The notes under the pieces were generated by a model. The model was not told the origin of the DNA, did not search any database, and was given only the letters and a program-made list of their open reading frames with translations. A DNA stretch of 64,000 nt, taken from Bacillus sp. J33 (GTDB lineage Bacteria > Bacillota > Bacilli > Bacillales > Cytobacillaceae). The position numbers and the translations under genes were made by a program. Of the stretch, positions 1,144-14,160 are shown one piece after another. Location: positions 1-64,000 of the forward strand of contig NZ_JAEL01000012.1 in assembly GCF_000518885.1 (NCBI RefSeq). Direction: 5' to 3'. Within the stretch, counting starts at the first letter, position 1, and each line of letters begins with the position of its first letter.

Positions 1144-1175
1144 TAAAAAAAGGAGAGGTTTTTACAACTCTCTCC
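1144..1175 (-). terminator. Terminator of the serine recombinase (minus strand)
   Basis: On the minus strand GGAGAG (1175-1170) pairs with CTCTCC (1157-1152), followed by a run of seven T residues. The recombinase stop codon (1164-1162) lies in the loop. Confidence 0.65.
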
Positions 1176-2661
1176 ACTTAATATCTATAACAGGCTCATT
1201 ATTTGTCTCAGCAGTTTTAGTAAAAACAATCCCTGCAATGATAAGCTTTAATGTAGCATTTTGCTCCTCTAAATCCAACTCCTCAAATGTATCAATCATC
1301 TCAATTATCCCTTTTACTTTCTCTACTTGAACAGATGCATCTAAGCTTTCCAGTTTAGTTTGAATTATACTTATTTCATCTTTTAAAGCAGAAATGGTTT
1401 CCTCTAAAACCTTCTTTTTCTGCTGATAAGAGTCTTTATCTAACTCTTCATCAAGATAAAGGTCTAACAGCCTTTTTGCTTTTCTTTCCTGCTTAGCTAG
1501 GTCAACCTTTAGCCCTTCTAAAGTACATACTAAGCTTTCCTCAATCCCTGATGTATCCTCAGCTAATAAACTAACTAGAGTCTGTTCTAGCTCTTTTTTG
1601 TAAAGGTTTAAAGCCTCAAGGACTGCATTTTCTACTTTATAAATAGCTGCTCCACCATTATGGCATTTTGTTTCTAAGTCAATATGATTTCTACAAGGTC
1701 TAATTTGATAAAAGGAGTAATTTCTCCCAGTTTTTCTTACTTTATTATTTAGCTGAATTGTCATTCCTTTACCACATACTCCACAAACAAGGAGCTTATT
1801 TACAGGTGATTTAATTCCTAAAGATTGCAGATTTTCTTTTGACCTTCTTAACTTAAACAATGTCTGAATCTGATTGAACTCCTGCTCAGTCATGATTGCC
1901 TCATGAGTATTTTTAGCAATAGCAGTCTTTTTCAACCTCTTAGAGTTATAACTTGATTCCCCTAAATAAACTCTATTTTGTAAGATACCTAATACCCTGT
2001 CAGTTTTAAAAGTATTACCTTTTCTAGACCTGTATCCTAATTTATTTACCTTATCAGCTATCTGTCTTGAGGAGTAGCCTAATAAAGCTAACTCAACCAT
2101 TTTTCTAACTATCTTTTTCTCCTCAGGATTAACAAGTAGCTGTTTAGTGTTTTTATCCCATGTATATCCAATTGGAGCAATTGATCCAATCCATCTATTT
2201 TTAATTGCAACTGCATCATATTTGCCTTTATTTAATCTGTGTCTAATCCTCTTGTATTCATAAGCTGACAATACTGAGGTAAAGCCAAACATTAGCTCCT
2301 GATTTTCATCTGAGAGGTCAATGGTGTTATCTGGAGTTTCAATTATAATTCCATGCTCTATAAATATTTCCTTTAATTCTGCTGAGTCTCTTTCATCCCT
2401 GCTCAATCTGTCAGGGTGAGTAACAAGTACTCTGCTGTATTTACCTTGGATTATTCCCTCAAGCATCTTTGCTAACTCTGGTCTATTCCAGTTTATTGAG
2501 GATTCTACCTCTTGGAAAATGTCATAGCTGTATCCTTTTTGCTCAGCTATTCTAACTAAAGTTTCCCTTTGATTTAGTAAAGTTTCCTCTGTTCCCCCAT
2601 CTTCCTCTCTGGACTTTCTCACATAAAGTGCAACTTTCAATTTTAGTGCTGTTTGTACCAT
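1162..2661 (-). CDS. Large serine recombinase (site-specific integrase)
   Basis: The 499-residue protein has the three-part architecture of large serine integrases. A resolvase catalytic domain covers about residues 9-150, with the nucleophilic serine in YVRKSREE (Ser17) and the arginine-rich stretch THPDRLSRDERD. A recombinase domain (about 165-270) includes GYSSRQIADKVNKLGYRSR. A zinc-ribbon (CGVCGKG, then CRN and CHN) is followed by a coiled-coil C-terminus. The start is ATG at 2659-2661 with AGGAGG just upstream. The gene begins about 70 bp from the right junction at about 2723-2735, as usual for such integrases next to an att site. It probably mobilised an element entering from the left; the left boundary is not visible. 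Confidence 0.9.
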   Translation of the reverse strand: MVQTALKLKVALYVRKSREEDGGTEETLLNQRETLVRIAEQKGYSYDIFQEVESSINWNRPELAKMLEGIIQGKYSRVLVTHPDRLSRDERDSAELKEIFIEHGIIIETPDNTIDLSDENQELMFGFTSVLSAYEYKRIRHRLNKGKYDAVAIKNRWIGSIAPIGYTWDKNTKQLLVNPEEKKIVRKMVELALLGYSSRQIADKVNKLGYRSRKGNTFKTDRVLGILQNRVYLGESSYNSKRLKKTAIAKNTHEAIMTEQEFNQIQTLFKLRRSKENLQSLGIKSPVNKLLVCGVCGKGMTIQLNNKVRKTGRNYSFYQIRPCRNHIDLETKCHNGGAAIYKVENAVLEALNLYKKELEQTLVSLLAEDTSGIEESLVCTLEGLKVDLAKQERKAKRLLDLYLDEELDKDSYQQKKKVLEETISALKDEISIIQTKLESLDASVQVEKVKGIIEMIDTFEELDLEEQNATLKLIIAGIVFTKTAETNNEPVIDIKWREL

Positions 2662-2733
2662 TTTGTTTCTCCTCCTGTTATGCTCTGATTTTGCCTCTAT
2701 TACTATAATTAGAGAGCTTTTAAAAACTGTGAC

Positions 2734-3321
2734 ATGTTATCAGAGCTATTCAATTATTGGAGGATGAACTGTGTTTTACTGACAAATCCGGAAAATCTCA
2801 GAACAAGATTGACAAGTATATTAGCTCAAATTAGACGATTTATGAAGACCTATAAACTCGACAAGCATGAGATGGAAAAATATTATATGGAAATTTACTC
2901 TGAGATATTAAACAATAGTGTTTTATTCCGGATCGTTCAGGAGATGCTTCTATTTATTTATCAAATTATTGATTGTGCCCTTCAGGCTGAAACAGTTTCA
3001 AAAAATGATGTAATAGAAAAAGGAATCAGATTTATTGAGTTAAATTATAGTGATCCGGATTTATCACTGGAAAAAGTTGCTGAAGAAGTGGGCAGGAATC
3101 CTTCCTATTATAGCCATTTATTAATGACCAAGCATGGCACGCCTTTCCGGCAGCTTTTAACAAATGTAAGAATACAAGAGGCAAAACGTCTTTTAACTTC
3201 AACGGAATGGTCAATTAAAGAAATAGCTTATAAAGTTGGTTTCCATAATCCCAATTATTTTGCCCGCCTTTTTAAAGAAACTACTTCCTATACACCCAGG
3301 GCATACCGATTAAATAAATAA
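2734..3321 (+). pseudogene. AraC-family regulator, apparently lacking its 5' half
   Basis: The C-terminal 100 residues form a complete AraC double helix-turn-helix (DLSLEKVAEEVGRNPSYYSH, then WSIKEIAYKVGFHNPNYFAR, ending YTPRAYRLNK). The N-terminal part (about 90 residues) is a helical linker with no sensor domain. The first ATG (2734) has no ribosome binding site and overlaps the inverted GTCACAGTTT-like copy at 2723-2733 next to the serine recombinase. The simplest reading is that integration of the recombinase element cut off the real 5' end. Its position just upstream of the BCCT/lyase pair suggests it once regulated them. A short, translated regulator is possible but less likely. Confidence 0.65.
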
Positions 3322-3730: not shown

Positions 3731-5311
3731 ATGTCGTTAGAAACCGGTAAGACGAGCAGTCCTGAAATAGTGGCTGAGACAGAACGGAAAACACGGAAGG
3801 GTGTTTTCTGGCCAGCATTCCTGATTGTTGGCGGAGGGGCAATCCTCGGAATTGTTAACAACAAAATGCTGGCCGACATTTCTATGAACGGATTCTTAGG
3901 CTCACTGCGGGGGCTTGGCTGGCTTTATCAAATAATATCGATTGCAGCTTTGGTCATAGTGGGACTTGTCACTTTTACAAAGCTTGGGAAGGTTCGGCTA
4001 GGGGGAGAAGATGCAAAGCCAAAGTTTTCTTTTCCTGTATGGTTTGCAATGGCATTAACGGGCGGCATCGCTACCGGGGTTATCACGTATGGGGTAAATG
4101 AACCCATAATCTACTTTGGCAATATTTATGGCGAAATGGAGCAGACAGGGATCAAACCCGGAACCGCTGAAGCGGCCATTTTTGCCATGGGACGCAGCTT
4201 CTATAATTGGTCTTTTATCCCTTATGCAATGTATTCACTAAGCGGTTTGGTTGTAGCGTACATGTACTTTAATCGCAAAAAATCACTATCGGTGACAGCC
4301 ACATTAATCCCTTTATTTGGAGATAGGCTGACAAAGGGGATTTGGACGAACATAATTGATACATTGTCGGTATTGGCTATTGCATTAGGCCTTGCTTCTT
4401 CACTTGGTGCAGGCTTGGCTCTTGTTGGTTCAGGAATCGAGACCACCTATGGAATTCAGCAGGGACCTATCATGTGGCTAGTGCTCACCTTTTTGATCAC
4501 GGGGACATTTACACTTTCCGCCCTGAAAGGATTAGATAAGGGAATTCGAATCTTGTCTGATGTTAATGCCAAAATCTTTTATATTATTTTAATTACCATT
4601 ATTATTGTTGGGCCTACATTGTACATTTTACGCACTTCAACTGCAGGAATGGGATATTGGCTGCAGAATTTTTGGATTTGGGGACTGGACCCGATTGACA
4701 TGGGCGGGGAAGCTCTTGTTATGTGGTGGACATTATATGACTGGGCTATCTGGATTGCCTATGCACCATTGATGGGCATTTTCCTGGCTATTATCTCACA
4801 TGGCCGTACGATTCGTGAGTTTATGATGATTAACTGGATCCTGCCTTCCGTATTCAGCATCATCTGGTTCGGTGTCTGGGGAGGAACGGCTTTATCCTGG
4901 CAGCAAAATGAAGCAGTGGACCTCATTGGGACTATAACTGAAAGTGGTGCAGTTGCCGGGCTGTGGGCATTCCTGGCTAATTTGCCGCTGGGCAGTATAT
5001 TAATTCCTGTTGTGATGATAACACTTATCCTTTCTTTTGCAACCGCCGCCGATTCCATGGTCCGGACTATTTCATCGTTATGTACAGAGAATATACGACA
5101 TGATGAGGAGCCTGCAAAGTGGAAAAAGCTTCTTTGGGCACTTTCTATTGCCACAATCGCTTTTGTAATGGTGGCTTACGCCGGCGGAGCCCAAGGGGTA
5201 GATGGAGTTAAGTATTTGGCAGCACTTGGAGGGTCGGCGGTCCTGTTTATCTTTGTCCTTCAGGTCGCCTCAGCGATTAAGATGTTTTTTATAGATAAAA
5301 TCGAAAGATAA
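3731..5311 (+). CDS. BCCT-family (betaine/carnitine/choline-type) transporter
   Basis: The protein (526 aa from ATG 3731, chosen because GGGGGAG lies 6-8 nt upstream) has about twelve hydrophobic segments and the BCCT signature region: GGIATGVITYGVNEPIIYFG and, further on, WWTLYDWAIWIAYAPLMG followed by HGRTIREF. BCCT carriers import quaternary-ammonium or otherwise trimethylated zwitterions, usually by Na+ symport. Several aromatic positions differ from typical glycine-betaine carriers (the tryptophan-rich box is partly replaced), so another betaine substrate is likely. The lyase gene follows after 27 bp, so the two are probably co-transcribed. Together they suggest import of an aromatic betaine such as ergothioneine or hercynine. 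Family call secure; substrate inferred. Confidence 0.88.
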   Translation: MSLETGKTSSPEIVAETERKTRKGVFWPAFLIVGGGAILGIVNNKMLADISMNGFLGSLRGLGWLYQIISIAALVIVGLVTFTKLGKVRLGGEDAKPKFSFPVWFAMALTGGIATGVITYGVNEPIIYFGNIYGEMEQTGIKPGTAEAAIFAMGRSFYNWSFIPYAMYSLSGLVVAYMYFNRKKSLSVTATLIPLFGDRLTKGIWTNIIDTLSVLAIALGLASSLGAGLALVGSGIETTYGIQQGPIMWLVLTFLITGTFTLSALKGLDKGIRILSDVNAKIFYIILITIIIVGPTLYILRTSTAGMGYWLQNFWIWGLDPIDMGGEALVMWWTLYDWAIWIAYAPLMGIFLAIISHGRTIREFMMINWILPSVFSIIWFGVWGGTALSWQQNEAVDLIGTITESGAVAGLWAFLANLPLGSILIPVVMITLILSFATAADSMVRTISSLCTENIRHDEEPAKWKKLLWALSIATIAFVMVAYAGGAQGVDGVKYLAALGGSAVLFIFVLQVASAIKMFFIDKIER

Positions 5312-5338
5312 CTGTCACTTTTATAGGGGGGAAGGAGC

Positions 5339-6904
5339 ATGTGTGCAAAAGGTATAAAAAAAGTTGTCTTAGGCAATAGGCTGAAACTGGAAGAGTTTGT
5401 AGCTGTTGCCCGGTTTAAGGCTGAGGTTGAATTTTCTTTCCATTATCAGGAGAGGGTAGTCAAATCCCGCCGCCTTTTAGAACAGCAGATGGAGAAGGGG
5501 GAAATTATGTATGGAGTGAATACGGGCTTCGGAGCACTCTACACACAAATTATTTCCCCTGAGGAAACAGCCCAGCTTCAAAGAAATATTCTCTTATCAC
5601 ATGCCACCTCTGTGGGTGAACCGCTTCCTAAAGAAGTCGTCAGGGCAACTATGTTAATGGCTCTGCAAAATCTGGGCCAAGGATATTCTGGAGTTCGGCT
5701 TCAAACGCTGGAAATGTATCGTCAATTCTTAAATCTGGACTTAACTCCATTTTCCCCGAAGGAAGGCTCTGTCGGATACTTAAGTCCAGAGGCTCATATA
5801 GCCTTAGTTTTAATCGGTGAGGGCCAGGCTTATTGGGGCGGAGAGCTAATGCCAGCGAAAAAGGCTTTGCATATGGCTGGACTTGAACCAATTGAGCTTT
5901 CAGCAAAAGAAGGACTGGCACTTACAAGCGGAACAACCAGTCCAACCGGAATGGGGGCACTGGCATTGTACGATATGTTAAAAGCAGCTTCCACTGCAGA
6001 CATCATAGGTGCGATGTCTCTTGAAGTTTTAAAAGGAACCGTTCGTGCTTTTGATGATCGATTAATGTCTGCCCGTCCACATAAAGAACAGCAAGAGACA
6101 GCTGCTGCTATACGCCGGCTGCTTTCCGACTCACCCATGGCTAATGCATACAAGGATTTCCGCTTACAGGATGCTTTATCTATTAGGGCTATTCCCCAGT
6201 TGCACGGAGCAGCGAAAAAAACCCTTAATGATGCCCTTAATACCATTGAAATCGAAATGAACGGCTGCAGTGACAATCCGATCCTATGGCCAGATAGTGA
6301 AGAAGGGGGTACCATATCAGGCTGCAATTGTGATTCCTCCTATGTTGGAATCGAGCTTGATTCTGCCTGTATCGCTGCGACAGCCATTGCCAAAATGTCA
6401 GAAAGGCGCAATAGCCGGCTTATCAATGGAAAGCATTCAGGCTTTCCTGATTTCCTAATTAAAAATGGCGGATTAAATTCCGGGTTGATGATTCCACAAT
6501 ATAGCCAGGCAGGACTATTAAATGATATGAAAATACTTTCACACCCAGCAACAGTGGACAGCATCCCCACATGCGGGGATCAGGAAGATTATGTTGCGAT
6601 GGGGTACAATGCTGCCAAAAAGGCTCGAGAGGTAGCGGCAAAGCTGGAGTATGTGTTAGCAATCGAGCTGTTATCCATTTACACGGCTCATCAATTCACA
6701 GACAATGTTCCGGCACCAGGATCTGCAAGCAAAGCTGTACTGGGACGGCTAGCTAATTTTATTCCTAAATTGGAAGAAGACCAATATCTTTACCCTTTTA
6801 TAGAGGGAATAAGAGAATTGATCCATACTGGTGAAATGATCGGTTGTGTGGAGAATACGCTAGGGAAGATTTTTAACAAAGAATTAAAGGTTGAGGATTT
6901 ATAA
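5339..6904 (+). CDS. MIO-less aromatic amino acid lyase homologue, ergothionase-like
   Basis: A 521-residue member of the histidine/phenylalanine ammonia-lyase superfamily. Recognisable blocks are YGVNTGFG (58-65, with the loop tyrosine), LQRNILLSHATSVGEPL (about 80-96), AKEGLALTSGTT, then GLNSGLMIPQYS and HPATVDSIPTCGDQEDYVAM. The key departure is at 143-153, GSVGYLSPEAH, where normal family members read GSVGASGDLAPLAH: the Ala-Ser-Gly that cyclises to the MIO electrophile is absent. The protein cannot form MIO and should not deaminate histidine. Elimination of trimethylamine, already a good leaving group, needs no MIO and is the chemistry of ergothionase, a member of this superfamily. The upstream BCCT betaine carrier fits. 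No other hut gene is nearby. Start ATG 5339 follows AGGGGGGAAGGAG; a terminator follows. Confidence 0.82.
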   Translation: MCAKGIKKVVLGNRLKLEEFVAVARFKAEVEFSFHYQERVVKSRRLLEQQMEKGEIMYGVNTGFGALYTQIISPEETAQLQRNILLSHATSVGEPLPKEVVRATMLMALQNLGQGYSGVRLQTLEMYRQFLNLDLTPFSPKEGSVGYLSPEAHIALVLIGEGQAYWGGELMPAKKALHMAGLEPIELSAKEGLALTSGTTSPTGMGALALYDMLKAASTADIIGAMSLEVLKGTVRAFDDRLMSARPHKEQQETAAAIRRLLSDSPMANAYKDFRLQDALSIRAIPQLHGAAKKTLNDALNTIEIEMNGCSDNPILWPDSEEGGTISGCNCDSSYVGIELDSACIAATAIAKMSERRNSRLINGKHSGFPDFLIKNGGLNSGLMIPQYSQAGLLNDMKILSHPATVDSIPTCGDQEDYVAMGYNAAKKAREVAAKLEYVLAIELLSIYTAHQFTDNVPAPGSASKAVLGRLANFIPKLEEDQYLYPFIEGIRELIHTGEMIGCVENTLGKIFNKELKVEDL

Positions 6905-6977
6905 AAAGTGTAGTGGATGTAGTATGTGCACATATTAAAGTTCTTTCATTAAGTCTGAAAATATACACTAAAAAAGA

Positions 6978-7005
6978 AGGTTCCTAGTTTAACAGGAGCC
7001 TTTTT
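6978..7005 (+). terminator. Terminator of the BCCT-lyase operon
   Basis: AGGTTCCT (6978-6985) pairs with AGGAGCCT (6994-7001, one G-U) followed by TTTTTGTTTT. Confidence 0.8.
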
Positions 7006-7070
7006 GTTTTGATATATTACATCAATCTCGAAAAAGCAAACTAGGTGTGAATCAAGATTGGTCATGATTT

Positions 7071-7230
7071 CCACTCCGGGCACTTGCTTTCCGCGGAGAG
7101 GAATGAAGCCTCCCCGGCTTCGCCTGTGGGGTCTCCCACTCTCTCTTCTGAGCAGGAGTCAAGTGCCCCCCCGCTCTCATCAACTTAGTTGGTAAACCTT
7201 ATAGATAGCGCTGAAAAGCAACAAACTTTG
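7071..7230. repeat. GC-rich Bacillaceae intergenic repeat, copy 1
   Basis: Begins near CACTCCGGGCACTTGC and contains CACTTGCTTTCCGCGGAGAG, CCCGGCTTCGCC, GGAGTCAAGTGCC and CATCAACTTAGTTGG, then AACAAACTTTGCG. GGCACTTG near the start and CAAGTGCC near the end can pair, so the unit can fold back on itself. A second, diverged copy is at 42832-42950. Such CACTTGCTTTCCGCG sequences recur between genes in many Bacillaceae; this is from memory. It is much more GC-rich than its surroundings and fills most of the 584-bp gap 6905-7488. Confidence 0.7.
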
Positions 7231-7488
7231 CGAAAACAGCGTAATAAAAAGATGGGATGACATAATAAACAATAGTTTCTGCGCACATTAAAAATATCAT
7301 TCTTAAGTTCTCACTGGATAATGATACGATTCAGTACAAGGATCAACTATATTAGCCAATTGTTATTCTCCTAATAATATTGTGCAGAAATTTATTAAAG
7401 GGGAACCTGCGTATGTATCGAATATGTAATAGCAGCAAAAGATTAAAAGACAATAAATATTAAGGTTTATAGACTAGGGAGGGTTAAC

Positions 7489-8337
7489 ATGGACAAAAAA
7501 CTTTTGAGAAGATTTGATTTCCCGGATACAGGGATCATTCTGTATGAAAGTAAACATCGGAGAGGCCAGTTTGTATCTGAACATTACCATGATCATTTTC
7601 AAGTTCTTTATGCATTGGATGGGGAAGGTGAAATTACACTTGATGGAAAGGCTTATAATTTTTCGAAAGACAAGGTTGTCCTTATTAATCCGAATTGCAT
7701 TCACTCGATAAAAGCGACGACTAAATTGACGGTGCTGGTACTTGCGTTTTCAGTACCCGCTTTGAAAGTGGCCATACAGGAGGAGCTGCTAACTTTAATT
7801 CAGAAAAATTCCAGACATTTTGAGCTTGACTTTTATACGGCAAGTGAAATACGGCCGTTGTTCAGGAAAATGCTATATGAACAAAAAAATGATGATTTTT
7901 TTGGTAATCTGTCCATGCCTGTTTATCTTCTTGAAATCATCATTCAATTGCTGCGTCAGCAAAATTTTTCTTATGTTCAGGATGCGAATGATATTCGTTC
8001 GATTCAAATCAAGGAATACATAGAGAGACATTATTTCAATAATATCACGGCAGAAAATCTTTCCTCGGTCTTTGGCATATCAACCAGATATATGAATGAT
8101 ATCTTTAAACGTAAATTCAATGATACCCCGCTGCAATATCTTCAAAAAGTAAGAATTCACCAGGCAAAGGAATTGCTTCTGGAATCCGACCAGGATATTG
8201 TATCTATTTGCTTTGAGGTGGGTTATGAAACATTATCAACTTTTTATCGCACTTTCAGAAATTTAGTAGGGATTTCACCAAATAAATTTCGTATGTCCGG
8301 TCAGTCACCATCAGACATTACGGATACGGTTTCCTGA
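7489..8337 (+). CDS. AraC-family regulator with cupin sensor domain
   Basis: The protein (282 aa) has an N-terminal cupin-like ligand pocket (about residues 15-95: EHYHDHFQVLYALDGEGEIT, later INPNCIHSI) and a C-terminal AraC double helix-turn-helix (about 180-280: ITAENLSSVFGISTRYMNDI and DIVSICFEVGYETLSTFYRT, ending VGISPNKFRM). The ATG at 7489 has GGGAGGG upstream. It lies 240 bp upstream of the TRAP transporter genes in the same direction and most likely controls the TRAP and sugar-derivative operons in response to the imported compound. The family is certain; the effector is not known. Confidence 0.85.
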   Translation: MDKKLLRRFDFPDTGIILYESKHRRGQFVSEHYHDHFQVLYALDGEGEITLDGKAYNFSKDKVVLINPNCIHSIKATTKLTVLVLAFSVPALKVAIQEELLTLIQKNSRHFELDFYTASEIRPLFRKMLYEQKNDDFFGNLSMPVYLLEIIIQLLRQQNFSYVQDANDIRSIQIKEYIERHYFNNITAENLSSVFGISTRYMNDIFKRKFNDTPLQYLQKVRIHQAKELLLESDQDIVSICFEVGYETLSTFYRTFRNLVGISPNKFRMSGQSPSDITDTVS

Positions 8338-8344
8338 TAAGCTT

Positions 8345-8448
8345 CTTATGAAGGCCAAAATGGAAGAGGAAAGAAACAGAAAGGTCCTTCATCGGGCTTA
8401 TGAAGGCCAAAATCGAAGAGAAAAGAAGCAGAAAGGTCCTTCATCGAA
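8345..8448. repeat. Two tandem 52-bp hairpin repeats
   Basis: Two consecutive 52-bp units (8345-8396, 8397-8448) differ at only a few bases. Each starts CTTATGAAGGCCAAAAT and ends GGTCCTTCATCG, so TGAAGG pairs with CCTTCA within each unit. They lie directly behind the AraC stop and before dctP. They may serve as a double transcription brake; no T-run follows the stems. Confidence 0.7.
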
Positions 8449-8574
8449 TGTAACAAATTAAATATATGTTTCTCCAAAATTAAGAATTTTTCTCTCAAAC
8501 TCATAAGACTTTAATTGGCGGAAAATTCAAAATAGTAATCAGAGAGAAAACATATTTCTAAGGAGGACAGAGGA

Positions 8575-9612
8575 ATGATGAAAAGAAAATGGGGCATTAT
8601 TTCAATTAGCATTCTATTACTCTTAATGCTTGCAACTGGATGTGGAAATACAACGGCAACAGAGGGAAGCGGGAAAGCAGAAGAAAAAGGGGAATATGTT
8701 ATAAAGTTTGCCCATGTTGTAAGCGCTTCAACTGCAAAAGGGAAAGCGGCTGAAAAGTTTAAGGAGCTTTTGGAAGAGCGAACAGACGGACAGATAAAAG
8801 TCGAGGTTTTTCCTGATTCACAATTAGGTGCTGACCGAGAAATTACGGAACAGATGCAATCTGGCACCATTCAAATGAACGCTCCATTTACAGGTGTTCT
8901 GCCTGCCTTTGTTAAACAATTTGAGGTTTTTGACCTGCCGTTCTTATTTAAAGACCGGGATCATGTGAAGAGAGCGGTAAATGGAGAATTAGGGGAAATC
9001 TTCAACCAGCATCTGGAAAAACAAGGTCTTCGCGCATTGGGATATTGGGATGGCGGATTTAAACACTTAACGAATTCCAAGCATACGATTCAAAAGCCGG
9101 AAGATCTGGATGGCCTGAAAATGCGTGTTTCCCAAAGCCCGCTATTAATTTCTCAATTCCAGGCAATGGGTGCCGGCGGGGTATCCATCGACTTTGCTGA
9201 GCTGTATACAGCCCTTCAAACAAAGACCGTTGATGGACAAGAAAATCCATTAAGCAACATCGTCAGCAAAAAGTTCTATGAAGTCCAAGATTATTTAACT
9301 CTTAGCGCCCACGGTTATATGGCCTATCCGTTAATTATCAGCGAGCAATTTTATCAGAATCTTCCAGCAGACCTGCAAAAAGCTGTTGATGAAGTGGCAG
9401 CAGAGGTAACGGATTGGCAGTGGGAGCAATCTGCCAAGGACGAAGAGGCTTATATCAAAACAATAGAAGAATCCGGAATAGAGATCACAGAGTTATCAGA
9501 TTCGGATAAAGAGGCCTTTATACAGGCTACAAGCGGTGTATATGAAGACTTTAAAGAAGTGGAAGGCAGCCAGGAATTACTGGATGCTATTAAAGAAGCG
9601 GAAGAGGAATAA
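8575..9612 (+). CDS. dctP: TRAP transporter solute-binding lipoprotein, DctP family
   Basis: The 345-residue protein has a lipoprotein signal peptide (hydrophobic core ISILLLLMLATGC, lipobox cysteine about residue 23) and a mature DctP-type binding domain: KFAHVVSASTAKGKAAEKF, then VFPDSQLGADREITEQMQSG. GLKMRVSQSPLLI contains the conserved arginine that usually clamps a substrate carboxylate. A GGAGGACAGAGG precedes tandem ATGs at 8575 and 8578. TRAP binding proteins capture mostly organic acids or sugar acids and pass them to DctQM. A terminator-like hairpin lies between this gene and dctQ, which could let the binding protein be made in excess. The ligand is probably the substrate of the 11.8-15 kb enzyme trio. 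Confidence 0.9.
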   Translation: MMKRKWGIISISILLLLMLATGCGNTTATEGSGKAEEKGEYVIKFAHVVSASTAKGKAAEKFKELLEERTDGQIKVEVFPDSQLGADREITEQMQSGTIQMNAPFTGVLPAFVKQFEVFDLPFLFKDRDHVKRAVNGELGEIFNQHLEKQGLRALGYWDGGFKHLTNSKHTIQKPEDLDGLKMRVSQSPLLISQFQAMGAGGVSIDFAELYTALQTKTVDGQENPLSNIVSKKFYEVQDYLTLSAHGYMAYPLIISEQFYQNLPADLQKAVDEVAAEVTDWQWEQSAKDEEAYIKTIEESGIEITELSDSDKEAFIQATSGVYEDFKEVEGSQELLDAIKEAEEE

Positions 9613-9647
9613 ATATTGCTTTCCTATAAATTAAAATGCATTGCAAG

Positions 9648-9672
9648 GACGGCTTTTAGCCGTCTCTTTTTT
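9648..9672 (+). terminator. Intra-operon hairpin between dctP and dctQ
   Basis: GACGGCT (9648-9654) and AGCCGTC (9658-9664) form a perfect stem with a TTT loop, followed by TCTTTTTT. It lies between the dctP stop (9612) and the likely dctQ start (9692), so it would act as a partial terminator. Confidence 0.75.
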
Positions 9673-9691
9673 CAAGAGGGAGGGACATTCA

Positions 9692-10213
9692 TTGAAAAGA
9701 ATCAATCACTTTCTGAACTATTTCGAAGAATATGCGGGAGTTTTTTCCCTAATCTTTACATCATTGCTTGTATTTTTACAGGTAGTGCTCAGGTATGTTT
9801 TTAATTATTCACTTTCGTGGTCAGAGGAAGTAGCAAGATATTTAATTGTCTGGTTTGTATTTATAGGGAACAGTATTGCTGTCAGAGAAAAAGCACATGC
9901 TACCATGGATGCTCTTGTTGCCTATTTGCCTGATCAAGGAAAAAAAGTCTTTTCGATGATCGCCAATCTCGTTTCGATTGTTTTTTGTGCTTTTTTAATA
10001 TGGTCAGGCAGCAGGATCGTTTCTGGTGTAATAGAGTCCGGAAGTGTGACACCTGCTACAGGGATGCCAATGTATATTCCATATCTCGCATTGCCAATAG
10101 GTGCAGGTTTGATGCTGATTCGATTTCTGCAGCTTTTTGTTCAGGATCTTAATAGCTTTCGCTCTGCAAGACATACTTTTACCCCGCCAAAAGAGGAGGC
10201 TCCGAAGCTATGA
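9692..10213 (+). CDS. dctQ: TRAP transporter small membrane subunit, DctQ family
   Basis: About 173 residues with four hydrophobic segments and DctQ hallmarks (LQVVLRYVFNYSLSWSEEVARYLIVW, cited here as VVLRYVFNYSLSWSEE plus VARYL). The reading frame stays open upstream to 9641, but that part would translate the terminator hairpin. The TTG at 9692 is the better start because AGGGAGGG lies 7-8 nt before it. It overlaps dctM by four bases (ATGA), implying translational coupling. DctQ pairs with DctM to form the membrane part of the Na+-driven TRAP importer. Confidence 0.85.
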   Translation: MKRINHFLNYFEEYAGVFSLIFTSLLVFLQVVLRYVFNYSLSWSEEVARYLIVWFVFIGNSIAVREKAHATMDALVAYLPDQGKKVFSMIANLVSIVFCAFLIWSGSRIVSGVIESGSVTPATGMPMYIPYLALPIGAGLMLIRFLQLFVQDLNSFRSARHTFTPPKEEAPKL

Positions 10214-11478
10214 TGCTATTAATGGTTTTTCTGATCCTTCTTTTATTGGGGGTTCCAATTGCGATAACGATTGCCTTGAGTACGATTATTGTCATATTAC
10301 AAAGTAATGTCCCAATTGATACTTTGGCAAGAACAATGTTTTCTGGGGTTGATTCCTTCTCGCTGATGGCGATCCCTTTTTTTGTATTCGCAGGAGATTT
10401 AATGCTTGCCGGCGGAACATCCAAAAGATTAATAGACTTTACGAAAAAATGGGTCGGGTGGACAACAGGCGGCCTGCCAATTGCCGGTGTCCTATCGTCC
10501 ATGTTTTTTGCTGCCCTTTCCGGCTCAAGTCCTGCAACCGTTGCCGCCATCGGGGGCATCATGATCCCGTCCCTGAAGGAAGCCCGTTTTTCCGAAAAAT
10601 TTTCGGTCGGATTAATGTGTGCATCCGGTTCGCTGGGAATCATCATTCCCCCAAGTATTACGTTTTTGGTTTATGGCGCTGTTGCGGAAGTGTCTATTGG
10701 CAAATTGTTTATTGCAGGAATCATTCCGGGAGTCTTTATCGGCTTGATCCTAATGATTGTCGGTTATGTTATTGCTAAAAAACAAGGGCACAAGCCGGAT
10801 CCCAGACCCTCCGGAAAAGAATTATGGAAATCCACCGTTTCAGCCATTTGGGGAATTATGATGCCTGTTATCGTACTGGGAGGCATTTACTTTGGTGTTT
10901 TTACACCGACTGAAGCCGCTGCGGTAGCAATTGTTTATAGCATGATTGTTGGCTTTTTCATTTATAAGGAACTGACCTTTAAAGAGTTATTCGCCGTCAC
11001 AAAACGGTCAATTGTAACTTCTGCCATGATTATGCTTGTCATTTCCGCTTCAAAGGTATTTAGCTGGTATTTAACATATGAGCAAATTCCATCGACAGTT
11101 GCGGGAAAGCTAATGGAATATGCAGCCAATCCGATTATTTTCTTAATTTTGGTAAATATCATCCTTTTAATAGTAGGAATGTTTATGGATTCCAGCGCAG
11201 CAGTGCTGATCCTGGTTCCGCTGTTCCTGCCGGTGGTGCTTGAGATGGGAATCGATCCGATACACTTTGGCGTCATCATGATCATCAATCTGGCAATTGG
11301 AATGTTAACTCCGCCATTCGGCTTGAATCTGTTTGTAGCCTCGGGCATTAGTAAGGTGTCATTGGCTGGTGTAACGCGGGGAACGATGCCATTTATTTTT
11401 GTGTTAATTGCTGCTTTAATGGTTATCACTTATGTACCGCAGCTCTCTCTTTATTTAACAAACTTTGTTTATCAATAA
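10210..11478 (+). CDS. dctM: TRAP transporter large permease subunit, DctM family
   Basis: A 422-residue, very hydrophobic protein with about 11-12 membrane segments, normal length for DctM. Typical features are LLLLGVPIAITIALS at the N-terminus, GSSPATVAAIGGIMIPSL, FGLNLFVASGISKVSL near the end and IGMLTPPFG. The start codon overlaps the dctQ stop (ATGA). A strong terminator follows at 11491-11523, so dctPQM forms one unit separate from the enzyme trio downstream. The family assignment is secure. Confidence 0.9.
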   Translation: MMLLMVFLILLLLGVPIAITIALSTIIVILQSNVPIDTLARTMFSGVDSFSLMAIPFFVFAGDLMLAGGTSKRLIDFTKKWVGWTTGGLPIAGVLSSMFFAALSGSSPATVAAIGGIMIPSLKEARFSEKFSVGLMCASGSLGIIIPPSITFLVYGAVAEVSIGKLFIAGIIPGVFIGLILMIVGYVIAKKQGHKPDPRPSGKELWKSTVSAIWGIMMPVIVLGGIYFGVFTPTEAAAVAIVYSMIVGFFIYKELTFKELFAVTKRSIVTSAMIMLVISASKVFSWYLTYEQIPSTVAGKLMEYAANPIIFLILVNIILLIVGMFMDSSAAVLILVPLFLPVVLEMGIDPIHFGVIMIINLAIGMLTPPFGLNLFVASGISKVSLAGVTRGTMPFIFVLIAALMVITYVPQLSLYLTNFVYQ

Positions 11479-11807: not shown

Positions 11808-12998
11808 ATGGGAGTTAAGAATATTGGAATTATTATGAATGGTGTAACCGGAAGGATGGGGACGAATCAGCATCTAATCAGATCGATTGTTGCCATTCGC
11901 GAACAAGGCGGGGTGGAGCTTGCGAATGGAGATTACATCATGCCGGATCCAGTTCTGGTCGGCCGCAATGAAGATAAATTACAGGCGCTGGCAGAGAAGC
12001 ACAATATCGGCCGGTGGAGCACAGATCTTGATAAGTGTCTGGCTGATCCGCATAATGTGATTTATTTTGATTCCCAAACAACCGTCCGAAGGGCAGATGC
12101 TATCCGAAAAGCGATAAAAGCAGGGAAACATATTTATTGTGAAAAGCCGACCGCTGCCAATTTGGAAGAATCCCTTGAATTAGCGCAGCTGGCCTACGAG
12201 TCTGGCGTAAAAAATGGGGTTGTGCAGGATAAGTTATTTTTGCCGGGCCTACTAAAATTAAAAAGATTAGCAGATTCAGGATTCTTCGGAAAAATTCTTT
12301 CTGTTCAAATGGAATTTGGCTACTGGGTTTTCGAGGGTGATTGGCAGGCTGGCCAGAGGCCTTCCTGGAATTACCGCAAAGAAGATGGCGGCGGAATCAT
12401 TGTGGATATGTTTGCCCATTGGCGGTATGTCCTCGATAACTTATTTGGAAATGTAAAATCTGTATCCTGCCTGGGTGTGACCCATATTCCGAAGCGGGTT
12501 GATGAGAAAGGTAATCCTTATGTTTGCACGGCCGACGATGCGGCTTATGCAACCTTTGAGCTGGAAGGCGGCATTATTGCACAAGTAAATTCTTCCTGGA
12601 CAGTCAGAGTGAATCGGGAAGATCTGTTAACGATTCAAGTGGATGGCACCCATGGAAGCGCTGTTGCCGGATTAAGGGATTGTAAAGTACAGCACCGTAT
12701 TAATACCCCTAAGCCGGTATGGAATCCTGACATTGAAAATCCGTTTAAATTTACAGAACAATGGCAGCCGGTACCTGACAATCAAACCTTTGATAATGGA
12801 TTTAAGGTGCAATGGGAGTTGTTTTTAAAACATGTTGCAGCGGATGAACCATTTGACTGGGATTTATTAGAGGGTGCAAAAGGCACTCAATTGGCAGAAT
12901 TAGGCCTTAAATCTTGGGAGGAGCGCCGCTGGATTGATGTACCGGAACTAAGCCTGGAGGTGAGAAAGAATGGGGAAGCTGTTAACTCTGCCAGATAA
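11808..12998 (+). CDS. Gfo/Idh/MocA-family NAD(P)-dependent oxidoreductase
   Basis: The 396-residue protein starts with a Rossmann-type segment (IGIIMNGVTGRMGTNQHL) and has the family's catalytic lysine motif EKP in GKHIYCEKPTAANLEESLEL (about residue 121). The C-terminal half (GGGIIVDMFAHWRYVLDNLF) is the usual beta-sheet substrate domain. Such enzymes oxidise or reduce hydroxyl groups of sugars, polyols or their acids. ATG 11808 follows AGGAGG. The next gene starts 29 bp before this one ends. Grouping with DUF993 and an epimerase-like protein suggests a first oxidation step (for example to a keto-sugar) before chain cleavage. Family sure, substrate unknown. Confidence 0.88.
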   Translation: MGVKNIGIIMNGVTGRMGTNQHLIRSIVAIREQGGVELANGDYIMPDPVLVGRNEDKLQALAEKHNIGRWSTDLDKCLADPHNVIYFDSQTTVRRADAIRKAIKAGKHIYCEKPTAANLEESLELAQLAYESGVKNGVVQDKLFLPGLLKLKRLADSGFFGKILSVQMEFGYWVFEGDWQAGQRPSWNYRKEDGGGIIVDMFAHWRYVLDNLFGNVKSVSCLGVTHIPKRVDEKGNPYVCTADDAAYATFELEGGIIAQVNSSWTVRVNREDLLTIQVDGTHGSAVAGLRDCKVQHRINTPKPVWNPDIENPFKFTEQWQPVPDNQTFDNGFKVQWELFLKHVAADEPFDWDLLEGAKGTQLAELGLKSWEERRWIDVPELSLEVRKNGEAVNSAR

Positions 12999-14160
12999 GA
13001 AGGGCGGGACCTATGAATATCGTGTAGGAGATTCTGGTTCTTTTAGCATACCGGAAGGCCAATTCAAAAGCAGAATCGCCTTTTCGGCTGCACATGTCGT
13101 TTGCGATCCGCTTGTGAATTCGGACCCCATTTTACACGCAAAGATTGATTGGGAAAACACGCTTGCTTATAGACGGCATCTTTGGTCTCTTGGCCTTTCT
13201 GTGGCAGAAGCAATGGATACGGCACAGCGCGGTATGGGACTTAATTGGGAAATGGCAAAGGAGCTCATTTGCCGATCGGCAGCGGAAGCGAATGCAGCAG
13301 GAGGAAAGATTGCCTGCGGAGCAGGGACGGATCATCTTCTTCCAGGTCCTTCTGTGACATTGGCGGATGTTCAGGCTGCGTATGAAGAGCAATGTGAATT
13401 TGTGGAAAAGAATAATTCGCAAATTATCTTAATGGCAAGCAGGGCACTGGCAGATTGTGCCCAAGGTCCTGAAGAATATGAAAGAGTCTATGGCAATATA
13501 TTAAGTCAGGTTTCCAAGCCAGTTATTCTGCACTGGCTGGGCGACATGTTCGATCCGGCTCTTCAAGGATATTGGGGTTATAAAAATTTGGATGATGCCA
13601 TGGAAGTCTGCCTGAATGTCATTTGGGATAACAAAGAAAAGGTCGATGGCATAAAAATCTCTTTACTCGATGCATCACGTGAAATCGAAATGCGCAGACA
13701 CCTTCCTCCAGGAGTCAAAATGTATACCGGTGATGATTTCAATTATCCGGAACTGATTAAAGGGGATGAATTTGGCTATAGCCATGCCCTGCTGGGTATT
13801 TTTGATGCCATAGCGCCAGCAGCGGCTGCAGCTTTGCATGCACTGGATGATGGTGACTATGTGTCCTATAACGCTTTATTGGCAAAGACAGTTCCGCTTT
13901 CACGTCATATTTTCCAGGCGCCAACTTATTCCTATAAAACCGGTGTTGTCTTTATGGCCTACCTGAATGGGCACCAGTCACACTTCCGAATGATTGGCGG
14001 GGCTGAAAGCGCACGGTCCATTGTACACCTGTCAGAGTTATTTGTATTAGCTGATCAGGCCGGCCTTCTTTCAGAGCCCGATCTTGCTGCTGAAAGAATG
14101 AAGCTGGTATTGAACTTAGCCGGAATTCGTCAGGAGGAATTTTACAGTGGAAAACTATGA
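12970..14160 (+). CDS. DUF993 protein (dihydrodipicolinate-synthase-like aldolase fold)
   Basis: A 396-residue protein of the family annotated DUF993, related to the class I aldolase/dihydrodipicolinate synthase group. Visible blocks include AFSAAHVVCDPL, WENTLAYRRHLWSLGLSVAEAMDTAQRGMG (quoted in part), CGAGTDHLLPG, and VDGIKISLLDASREIEMR, whose lysine in the IKISLLD strand is the probable Schiff-base residue. The C-terminal end has NGHQSHFRMIGGAE. GGAGGTGAG precedes the ATG at 12970, inside the upstream gene, so translation is coupled. It probably cleaves the ketose or keto-acid made by the oxidoreductase. The catalytic claim is inference from fold and context. Confidence 0.8.
   Translation: MGKLLTLPDKKGGTYEYRVGDSGSFSIPEGQFKSRIAFSAAHVVCDPLVNSDPILHAKIDWENTLAYRRHLWSLGLSVAEAMDTAQRGMGLNWEMAKELICRSAAEANAAGGKIACGAGTDHLLPGPSVTLADVQAAYEEQCEFVEKNNSQIILMASRALADCAQGPEEYERVYGNILSQVSKPVILHWLGDMFDPALQGYWGYKNLDDAMEVCLNVIWDNKEKVDGIKISLLDASREIEMRRHLPPGVKMYTGDDFNYPELIKGDEFGYSHALLGIFDAIAPAAAAALHALDDGDYVSYNALLAKTVPLSRHIFQAPTYSYKTGVVFMAYLNGHQSHFRMIGGAESARSIVHLSELFVLADQAGLLSEPDLAAERMKLVLNLAGIRQEEFYSGKL

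Follow-up and report, generated by a model that had tools for sequence, protein, structure and literature searches.

The window analysed here is a 64,000-nucleotide stretch of Bacillus sp. J33 DNA (contig NZ_JAEL01000012.1, C11 of the 5.56-Mb draft genome). It carries the gene of a BCCT-family carrier and, directly behind it, the gene of a lyase related to histidine ammonia-lyase (HAL) that lacks the Ala-Ser-Gly triad forming the 4-methylideneimidazol-5-one (MIO) prosthetic group. We consider it likely that the pair is a module for the utilisation of hercynine (histidine betaine, N-alpha-trimethylhistidine), and it is probably the front end of the histidine utilisation (Hut) pathway. The gene structure, the loss of MIO, the fold, the clade, the kept and changed residues, the carrier and hut linkage of relatives and the intact hutU-hutI-hutG genes were computed directly; substrate, chemistry and transport are what we infer from them.

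Residues 143-153 of the lyase read GSVGYLSPEAH, while the aligned HALs, including the HutH of the same genome, have GS(L/V)G(A/S)SGDL. A single Tyr stands in for ASGD (GSVG-Y-L vs. GSVG-ASGD-L), a net loss of three residues, and neither ASG nor SGD occurs anywhere in the protein. The alignment confirms the segment reported in the first-pass annotation of this DNA, and the displaced but intact Ala-Ser-Gly named there as counter-evidence was not found in the lyase. To collect relatives, the MIO-less segment was aligned over 33 residues and the alignment run against a collection of 84,980 species genomes. The scan matched 237 stretches, 215 of which encode relatives by the tool's criterion, and all counts of scan loci refer to the best 80 of these 215; L numbers denote individual loci. 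By record titles, they comprise 64 loci from Bacillota, 13 from Pseudomonadota, one from Actinomycetota, one labelled Bacteroidota (Lutibacter sp. B2, a label that we doubt) and one without phylum; viral contigs gave one pattern match and no relative. Two of 35 genomes of the genus hold orthologues (87% and 84% identity) in which the segment recurs, and an uninterrupted frame of more than 400 amino acids with the segment was present in 79 of the 80 scan loci, the scan pattern itself having selected for the segment. Sequencing error or gene decay as the cause of the MIO loss was ruled out by these orthologues and uninterrupted frames.

Catalytic positions are given in P. putida HAL numbering (Tyr53, His83 and Glu414 are Tyr58, His88 and Glu416 of the window lyase). 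The MIO segment was absent in all 85 clade members examined; Tyr53, Gln277, Arg283 and Glu414 were kept in 85/85 and His83 in 80/85. Residue 280 was Leu or Met in 72 of these members and Tyr in 13, and residue 195 was Ser in 62 and Asn in 22. The window lyase keeps Y53, H83, Q277, R283, Q413 and E414 and is changed at four positions (N195S, Y280L, F329C and H330D), so the earlier description of the neighbouring blocks as intact was too strong. In HAL, His83 and Glu414 bind the imidazole ring, and their retention speaks against Phe, Tyr or Trp betaines. In the two control aminomutases, position 414 is Gln, and position 83 is Val in the Phe enzyme and His in the Tyr enzyme. These residues indicate that the imidazole-binding pocket of the lyase is still in place and that the machinery for activating ammonia has gone. 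Its AlphaFold2 model (mean predicted local distance difference test score, pLDDT, 91.6) has the HAL/phenylalanine ammonia-lyase fold and matches both HAL and ergothionase.

Lyases of this type occur in many other bacteria and are usually annotated as plain histidine ammonia-lyase. HutH proper (TIGR01225; P. putida 1gkm) has MIO, Tyr280 and Asn195, whereas the window lyase has no MIO, Leu280 and Ser195, and scored below the cut-offs of two hutH models (495.8 vs. 539.15 bits on TIGR01225; 512.1 vs. 524 on PRK09367). A MIO-free enzyme acting on ordinary histidine as a stand-in for HutH in hut operons would agree with the kept imidazole-binding residues and with the position of the lyase, which occupies HutH's place in several hut clusters. 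We regard it as very unlikely, since HAL requires MIO and Tyr280, both missing here, the adjoining carriers are often of the betaine type, and a normal HutH is present in the window genome (on C163, with an intact MIO triad, the sole other PF00221 gene of the genome) and in loci L060, L062, L090 and L103. An inactive relative that serves in regulation or binding is hardly credible: besides MIO, three more catalytic positions depart from HAL, but Tyr53, Arg283 and Glu414 are kept in every clade member examined, the gene is tightly paired with the carrier, and, judged by record titles, the type spans three phyla or more.

In a quick tree of 105 rows (MIO columns excluded; two lyase rows, the partial L040 and the first copy of L085, omitted), 84 rows of the window's type formed one side of a branch (Shimodaira-Hasegawa-like approximate likelihood ratio test, SH-aLRT, 99), and the ergothionase type also formed one side of a branch. 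In a careful tree of 49 rows, a selection that also omits the second lyase of L091, the window's type (support 100/99) and the ergothionase type (100/99) were separate groups. Both trees place the window lyase in an unnamed MIO-less clade with good support and outside that of the Treponema ergothionase, the enzyme named for comparison in the first-pass annotation. The nine rows of the window's own subclade grouped with SH-aLRT 100 in the 105-row tree. With 105 rows, a sister-clade tree with one loss of MIO was better by 8.6 log units (approximately unbiased, AU, test, p 0.613), the quick tree itself needing two losses; with 49 rows, the one-loss tree was worse by 7.5 log units (AU p 0.128), two losses being preferred, not significantly.

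Like the window lyase, Treponema denticola ergothionase (ergothioneine trimethylamine-lyase, PDB 6s7j/6s7q) has the HAL fold without MIO, and the two have Ser195, Leu280, His83, Arg283 and Glu414 in common; by analogy, trimethylamine elimination is the chemistry expected of the window lyase. The lyase would resemble ergothionase in kind, with a different proposed substrate. A second kind of ergothionase, converting ergothioneine to trimethylamine and thiourocanate, is unlikely. The identity of the window lyase is 27% to the Treponema enzyme vs. 37% to HAL, and the deletion differs (one residue in ergothionase, SSIGE-GD; three in the window lyase, GSVGY---L), as do positions 329 and 330 (Phe and Glu in ergothionase; Cys and Asp here). 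Genes of the Treponema ergothionase group also coexist beside the window type in L060, L069, L086 and L095. Further evidence came from the hydratases linked to the lyases, 19 of which were scored against models of hutU (cut-off 375), thiourocanate hydratase (930) and S-methylthiourocanate hydratase (880). The hutU cut-off was passed by 18/19, the exception (L068) being cut off by its contig (the hydratases of L025 and L090 are also incomplete). None of the 19 reached the cut-off for thiourocanate or S-methylthiourocanate hydratase, and the hutU model was clearly the higher-scoring one for 17. All four hut-linked members of the window's subclade have a plain hutU hydratase (984-1000 bits). Canonical HutU, rather than thiourocanate hydratase, beside the nearest hut-linked relatives of the window speaks against ergothioneine, towards which we had leaned at an early stage; the hydratase scores ended that leaning.

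At the genome level, HutU exceeded the cut-off, which also admits other hydratase types, in 44/44 lyase-bearing genomes tested (G006 and the genomes of 43 scan loci, a choice made up mostly of isolates). In a class sample around one lyase-bearing Clostridium, that genome counted, HutU was present in 13/118. Within the NCBI class Clostridia, HutU was found in 11/11 lyase-bearing genomes vs. 12/117 (Fisher p 5.6e-10), in a control that may itself hold lyase-bearing genomes and that, drawn around one Clostridium, is unmatched for lifestyle and for other lineages.

Neighbouring genes were counted by tblastn over all 80 scan loci with flanks of up to 8 kb; these counts are lower bounds because 22 of the 80 loci are shorter than 15.5 kb. 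A BCCT gene was present in 49/80 loci, a hutU homologue in 16, hutI in 14 and both hut genes in 13; among the 58 longer loci, hutU was found in 14 and BCCT in 37. A MIO-type HAL frame was present in three of the 16 hutU-linked loci (L062, L090 and L103) and was not found in the other 13 stretches. Our own gene calls cover 79 loci (the window, six others and 72 of the scan loci, i.e. all except L070, L072, L078, L079, L084, L089, L092 and L101), and in 34 of them BCCT is directly adjacent to the lyase. The gene order is regulator-hutU-hutI-hutG-BCCT-lyase in Siminovitchia (L083, L094), hutU-hutI-hutG-glutamate dehydrogenase-lyase in Acinetobacter (L066, L077) and MFS-lyase-regulator-hutG-hutU-hutI-glutamate dehydrogenase in Paenibacillus (L115, L117). 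Four of the nine rows of the window's subclade adjoin hutU-hutI (L062, L064, L083 and L094; one from Priestia abyssalis, one from Domibacillus and two from Siminovitchia), L062 being the one that also has HAL. The other five (the window, L038, L039, L050 and L045, the last on a 5.8-kb contig) are not hut-linked. The window genome has hutU-hutI-hutG with a paralogue of the response regulator on C129, and its hutU is 81% identical to that of Priestia abyssalis. The first-pass annotation had proposed a two-gene module for uptake and elimination of ergothioneine, hercynine or another aromatic betaine. The comparative evidence favours betaine uptake and elimination and narrows the list, with hercynine likeliest (His83/Glu414 kept, canonical HutU); a module of these two genes standing alone was not borne out, relatives adjoining hut genes and the genome having its own set on C129.

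The carrier shares its Pfam family with known BCCT carriers (TmaT 8zw8, BetP, CaiT) and has GGIATG where these have GMGIG. Five NCBIfam BCCT models matched it, each with a score under its cut-off (betaine 310.8 vs. 650, choline 216 vs. 695 and carnitine 206.8 vs. 541, among them). Its motif in transmembrane helix 8 (TM8), WWTLYDWAIWIAYAP (WTLYDWAIW), has Asp where TmaT has Tyr (WTIFYWAWW). This Asp is common to 35 of 42 BCCTs in the loci (those of L053, L070, L085, L088, L096, L109 and L114 are without it) and is absent from the other six full-length BCCTs of the window genome. We take it as the mark of a putative substrate-specific BCCT subfamily. In BetP numbering, Trp189, Tyr197 and Trp374 are kept, and the window carrier has Ile for Trp373 and Tyr for Trp194 and Trp377. 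A BCCT for histidine betaine is plausible because, in a Corynebacterium study, BetP is suggested as a possible importer of ergothioneine (PMC12689799).

In the proposed mechanism, the BCCT carrier would import hercynine, and the lyase would hold the imidazole via His88 and Glu416 and the carboxylate via Arg283. Tyr58 would take the beta proton, and trimethylamine would leave as a neutral amine without MIO activation; the electrophilic MIO would be unneeded, a quaternary ammonium leaving readily as it is. The urocanate produced would pass through the genome's own HutU, HutI and HutG to glutamate. The chemistry is proposed by analogy with ergothionase, which a published text describes as lacking MIO and releasing trimethylamine (PMC13405746).

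Besides the unmatched Clostridia control, several observations weigh against the hercynine reading. The pair is unlinked to hut genes in the window's contig, in the two closest orthologous loci and in L050, and a hutU homologue is linked in only one fifth of the scan loci. Some clade members retain N195, Y280 and F329. At least 13 of the 44 lyase-bearing genomes have further hydratase homologues (590-790 bits on the hutU model), mostly not scored on the thiourocanate models, so that these genomes may also have pathways of the ergothioneine type. A betaine-type ABC carrier does not tell hercynine and ergothioneine apart as the substrate, since the EgtU binding domain bound ergothioneine about 10,000-fold tighter than hercynine (PMC9732360). 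Two linked hydratases are ambiguous: that of L088 scored 589.7 on hutU and 587.9 on S-methylthiourocanate hydratase, and that of L096 scored 618.3 and 640.1 respectively, the latter below its cut-off. In both loci, Cys replaces His83 in the lyase, and the BCCT is without the usual motif. Because of the ambiguous hydratases and the Cys, the substrate may differ at least in this subclade, perhaps being a sulfur-substituted histidine betaine. Finally, a more distant branch (GSVGYLIAT), which joins the window's type in its 100/99 group of the 49-row tree, lies on Agrobacterium and Rhizobium plasmids. In L033 (Agrobacterium plasmid, 6965-11430), the one of these with annotation, the lyase adjoins CoA-transferase and beta-oxidation genes; the neighbours are genes of an OpuAC-type transporter, a CoA-transferase, a 3-hydroxyacyl-CoA dehydrogenase and an enoyl-CoA hydratase, which suggests a CoA-dependent route for an acrylate product.

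Several substrates are likely inside the clade because positions 83, 195, 280, 329 and 330 vary. For the window pair itself, another histidine-like betaine (ergothioneine sulfonate, S-methyl-ergothioneine or a ring-methylated hercynine) or a non-imidazole aromatic betaine, with trimethylamine or another amine leaving, seems improbable. The variation at those five positions and in the downstream genes, together with the L096 hydratase scoring best on S-methylthiourocanate hydratase (below cut-off), would suit it, and a pathway for ergothioneine sulfonate was reportedly described by Yan in 2022; the window's subclade keeps His83 and Glu414, pointing to imidazole, and its linked hydratases are canonical HutU.

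Hercynine has been described chiefly as an intermediate of ergothioneine formation, and we found no report of a hercynine-splitting enzyme in the open-access full text searched. Beyond the window, we see an even chance that an unrecognised ammonia-lyase branch, now annotated HutH, is made up for the most part of hercynine trimethylamine-lyases, has side branches acting on related betaines, and gives a second entrance to histidine catabolism. The carriers of this branch would be BCCT, OpuAC-type ABC, SSF or MFS proteins, in soil, gut and anaerobic bacteria. It would include the lyase of the Klebsiella plasmid hut cluster described below, which occurs on about 200 enterobacterial plasmids. If so, hercynine would serve bacteria in general as a nutrient and add to the sources of trimethylamine in gut and soil, a common annotation would be corrected (HutH for an enzyme unable to form MIO from an ASG triad), and the HAL fold would have a second natural example of amine elimination without the prosthetic group. 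In a biocrust study, histidine betaine vanished from intact soil crust and was used by none of the isolates, a result described there as a possible guide for isolating histidine-betaine users (PMC4595634). The BCCT-lyase pair would provide a sequence marker for such organisms.

The features of the locus are given in Table 1. The 27-bp gap between the genes (5312-5338) agrees with the spacing first reported, coordinates and Pfam matches concurring, and an RBS-like (ribosome-binding site) sequence precedes both ATGs. Terminator-like sites numbered nine in the region vs. 4.2 in shuffles.

Table 1. Coordinates of the BCCT-lyase pair and flanking features in the window, and of features in loci L088 and L096.
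Feature	Coordinates	Strand	Evidence
BCCT-family carrier, proposed hercynine importer	3731..5311	+	Pfam PF02028, 382.7 bits (cut-off 27)
MIO-less HAL-fold lyase, proposed hercynine trimethylamine-lyase	5339..6904	+	PF00221, 536 bits; trees; predicted fold
Codons for GSVGYLSPEAH (lyase residues 143-153), segment without the MIO-forming Ala-Ser-Gly	5765..5797	+	
3' remnant of an AraC-type response regulator	2734..3321	+	89% identity to residues 316-494 of a 495-amino-acid regulator
Hairpin resembling an intrinsic terminator, predicted end of the BCCT-lyase transcript	6974..7005	+	12-pair stem, T-rich tail; consensus match only
L088, features of the MIO-less lyase locus	3876-5420 and 7312-8928		
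L096, features of the MIO-less lyase locus	7614-9158 and 12061-13773		

Bacillus sp. NTK034 and Cytobacillus oceanisediminis hold the closest orthologues of the pair. In both relatives (L023, L024), the regulator upstream of the pair is full-length (488-495 amino acids). An integrated element probably truncated the regulator of the window, because DNA homology to the relatives starts at 2783 and, with the full-length regulator as query, residues 1-315 had no close counterpart in the draft genome. About 70 bp from the 195-amino-acid remnant, the minus strand carries a serine recombinase gene with Resolvase and Recombinase domains (gene and remnant both within 1162-3321). Downstream of the lyase, at 7489-11478, are genes of an AraC regulator and a tripartite ATP-independent periplasmic (TRAP) transporter (DctP, DctQ, DctM). 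By synteny, these lie outside the lyase module, because both close relatives carry an antiporter-like gene on the opposite strand in the matching place.

Some further arrangements were seen among the relatives. The four stretches with coexisting ergothionase-type genes, and L040 with a partial one, also carry genes of molybdenum hydroxylase (xanthine dehydrogenase-like) subunits; one coexisting ergothionase-group gene is 80.9% identical to the Treponema enzyme. Two window-type MIO-less lyases lie close together, usually adjacent, in L076, L082, L085, L105, L107 and L114, an arrangement suggestive of a pair of related substrates. Binding proteins of betaine-type ABC carriers (OpuAC) adjoin the lyase family in L025, L033 and L129. 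The last, of the more distant branch (GSVGYLIAT), is on a Klebsiella pneumoniae plasmid (NZ_CP092405.1, 54106-73632), in which the MIO-less lyase lies inside a complete hut cluster (hutG, hutI, permease, hutU, OpuAC-type ABC transporter, lyase, hutD, hutC and hutF). At an identity of at least 95%, the DNA of this lyase was present in 203 plasmid records (191 from Klebsiella); 163 of the 203 cover at least 80% of the gene, the surroundings having been viewed in one.

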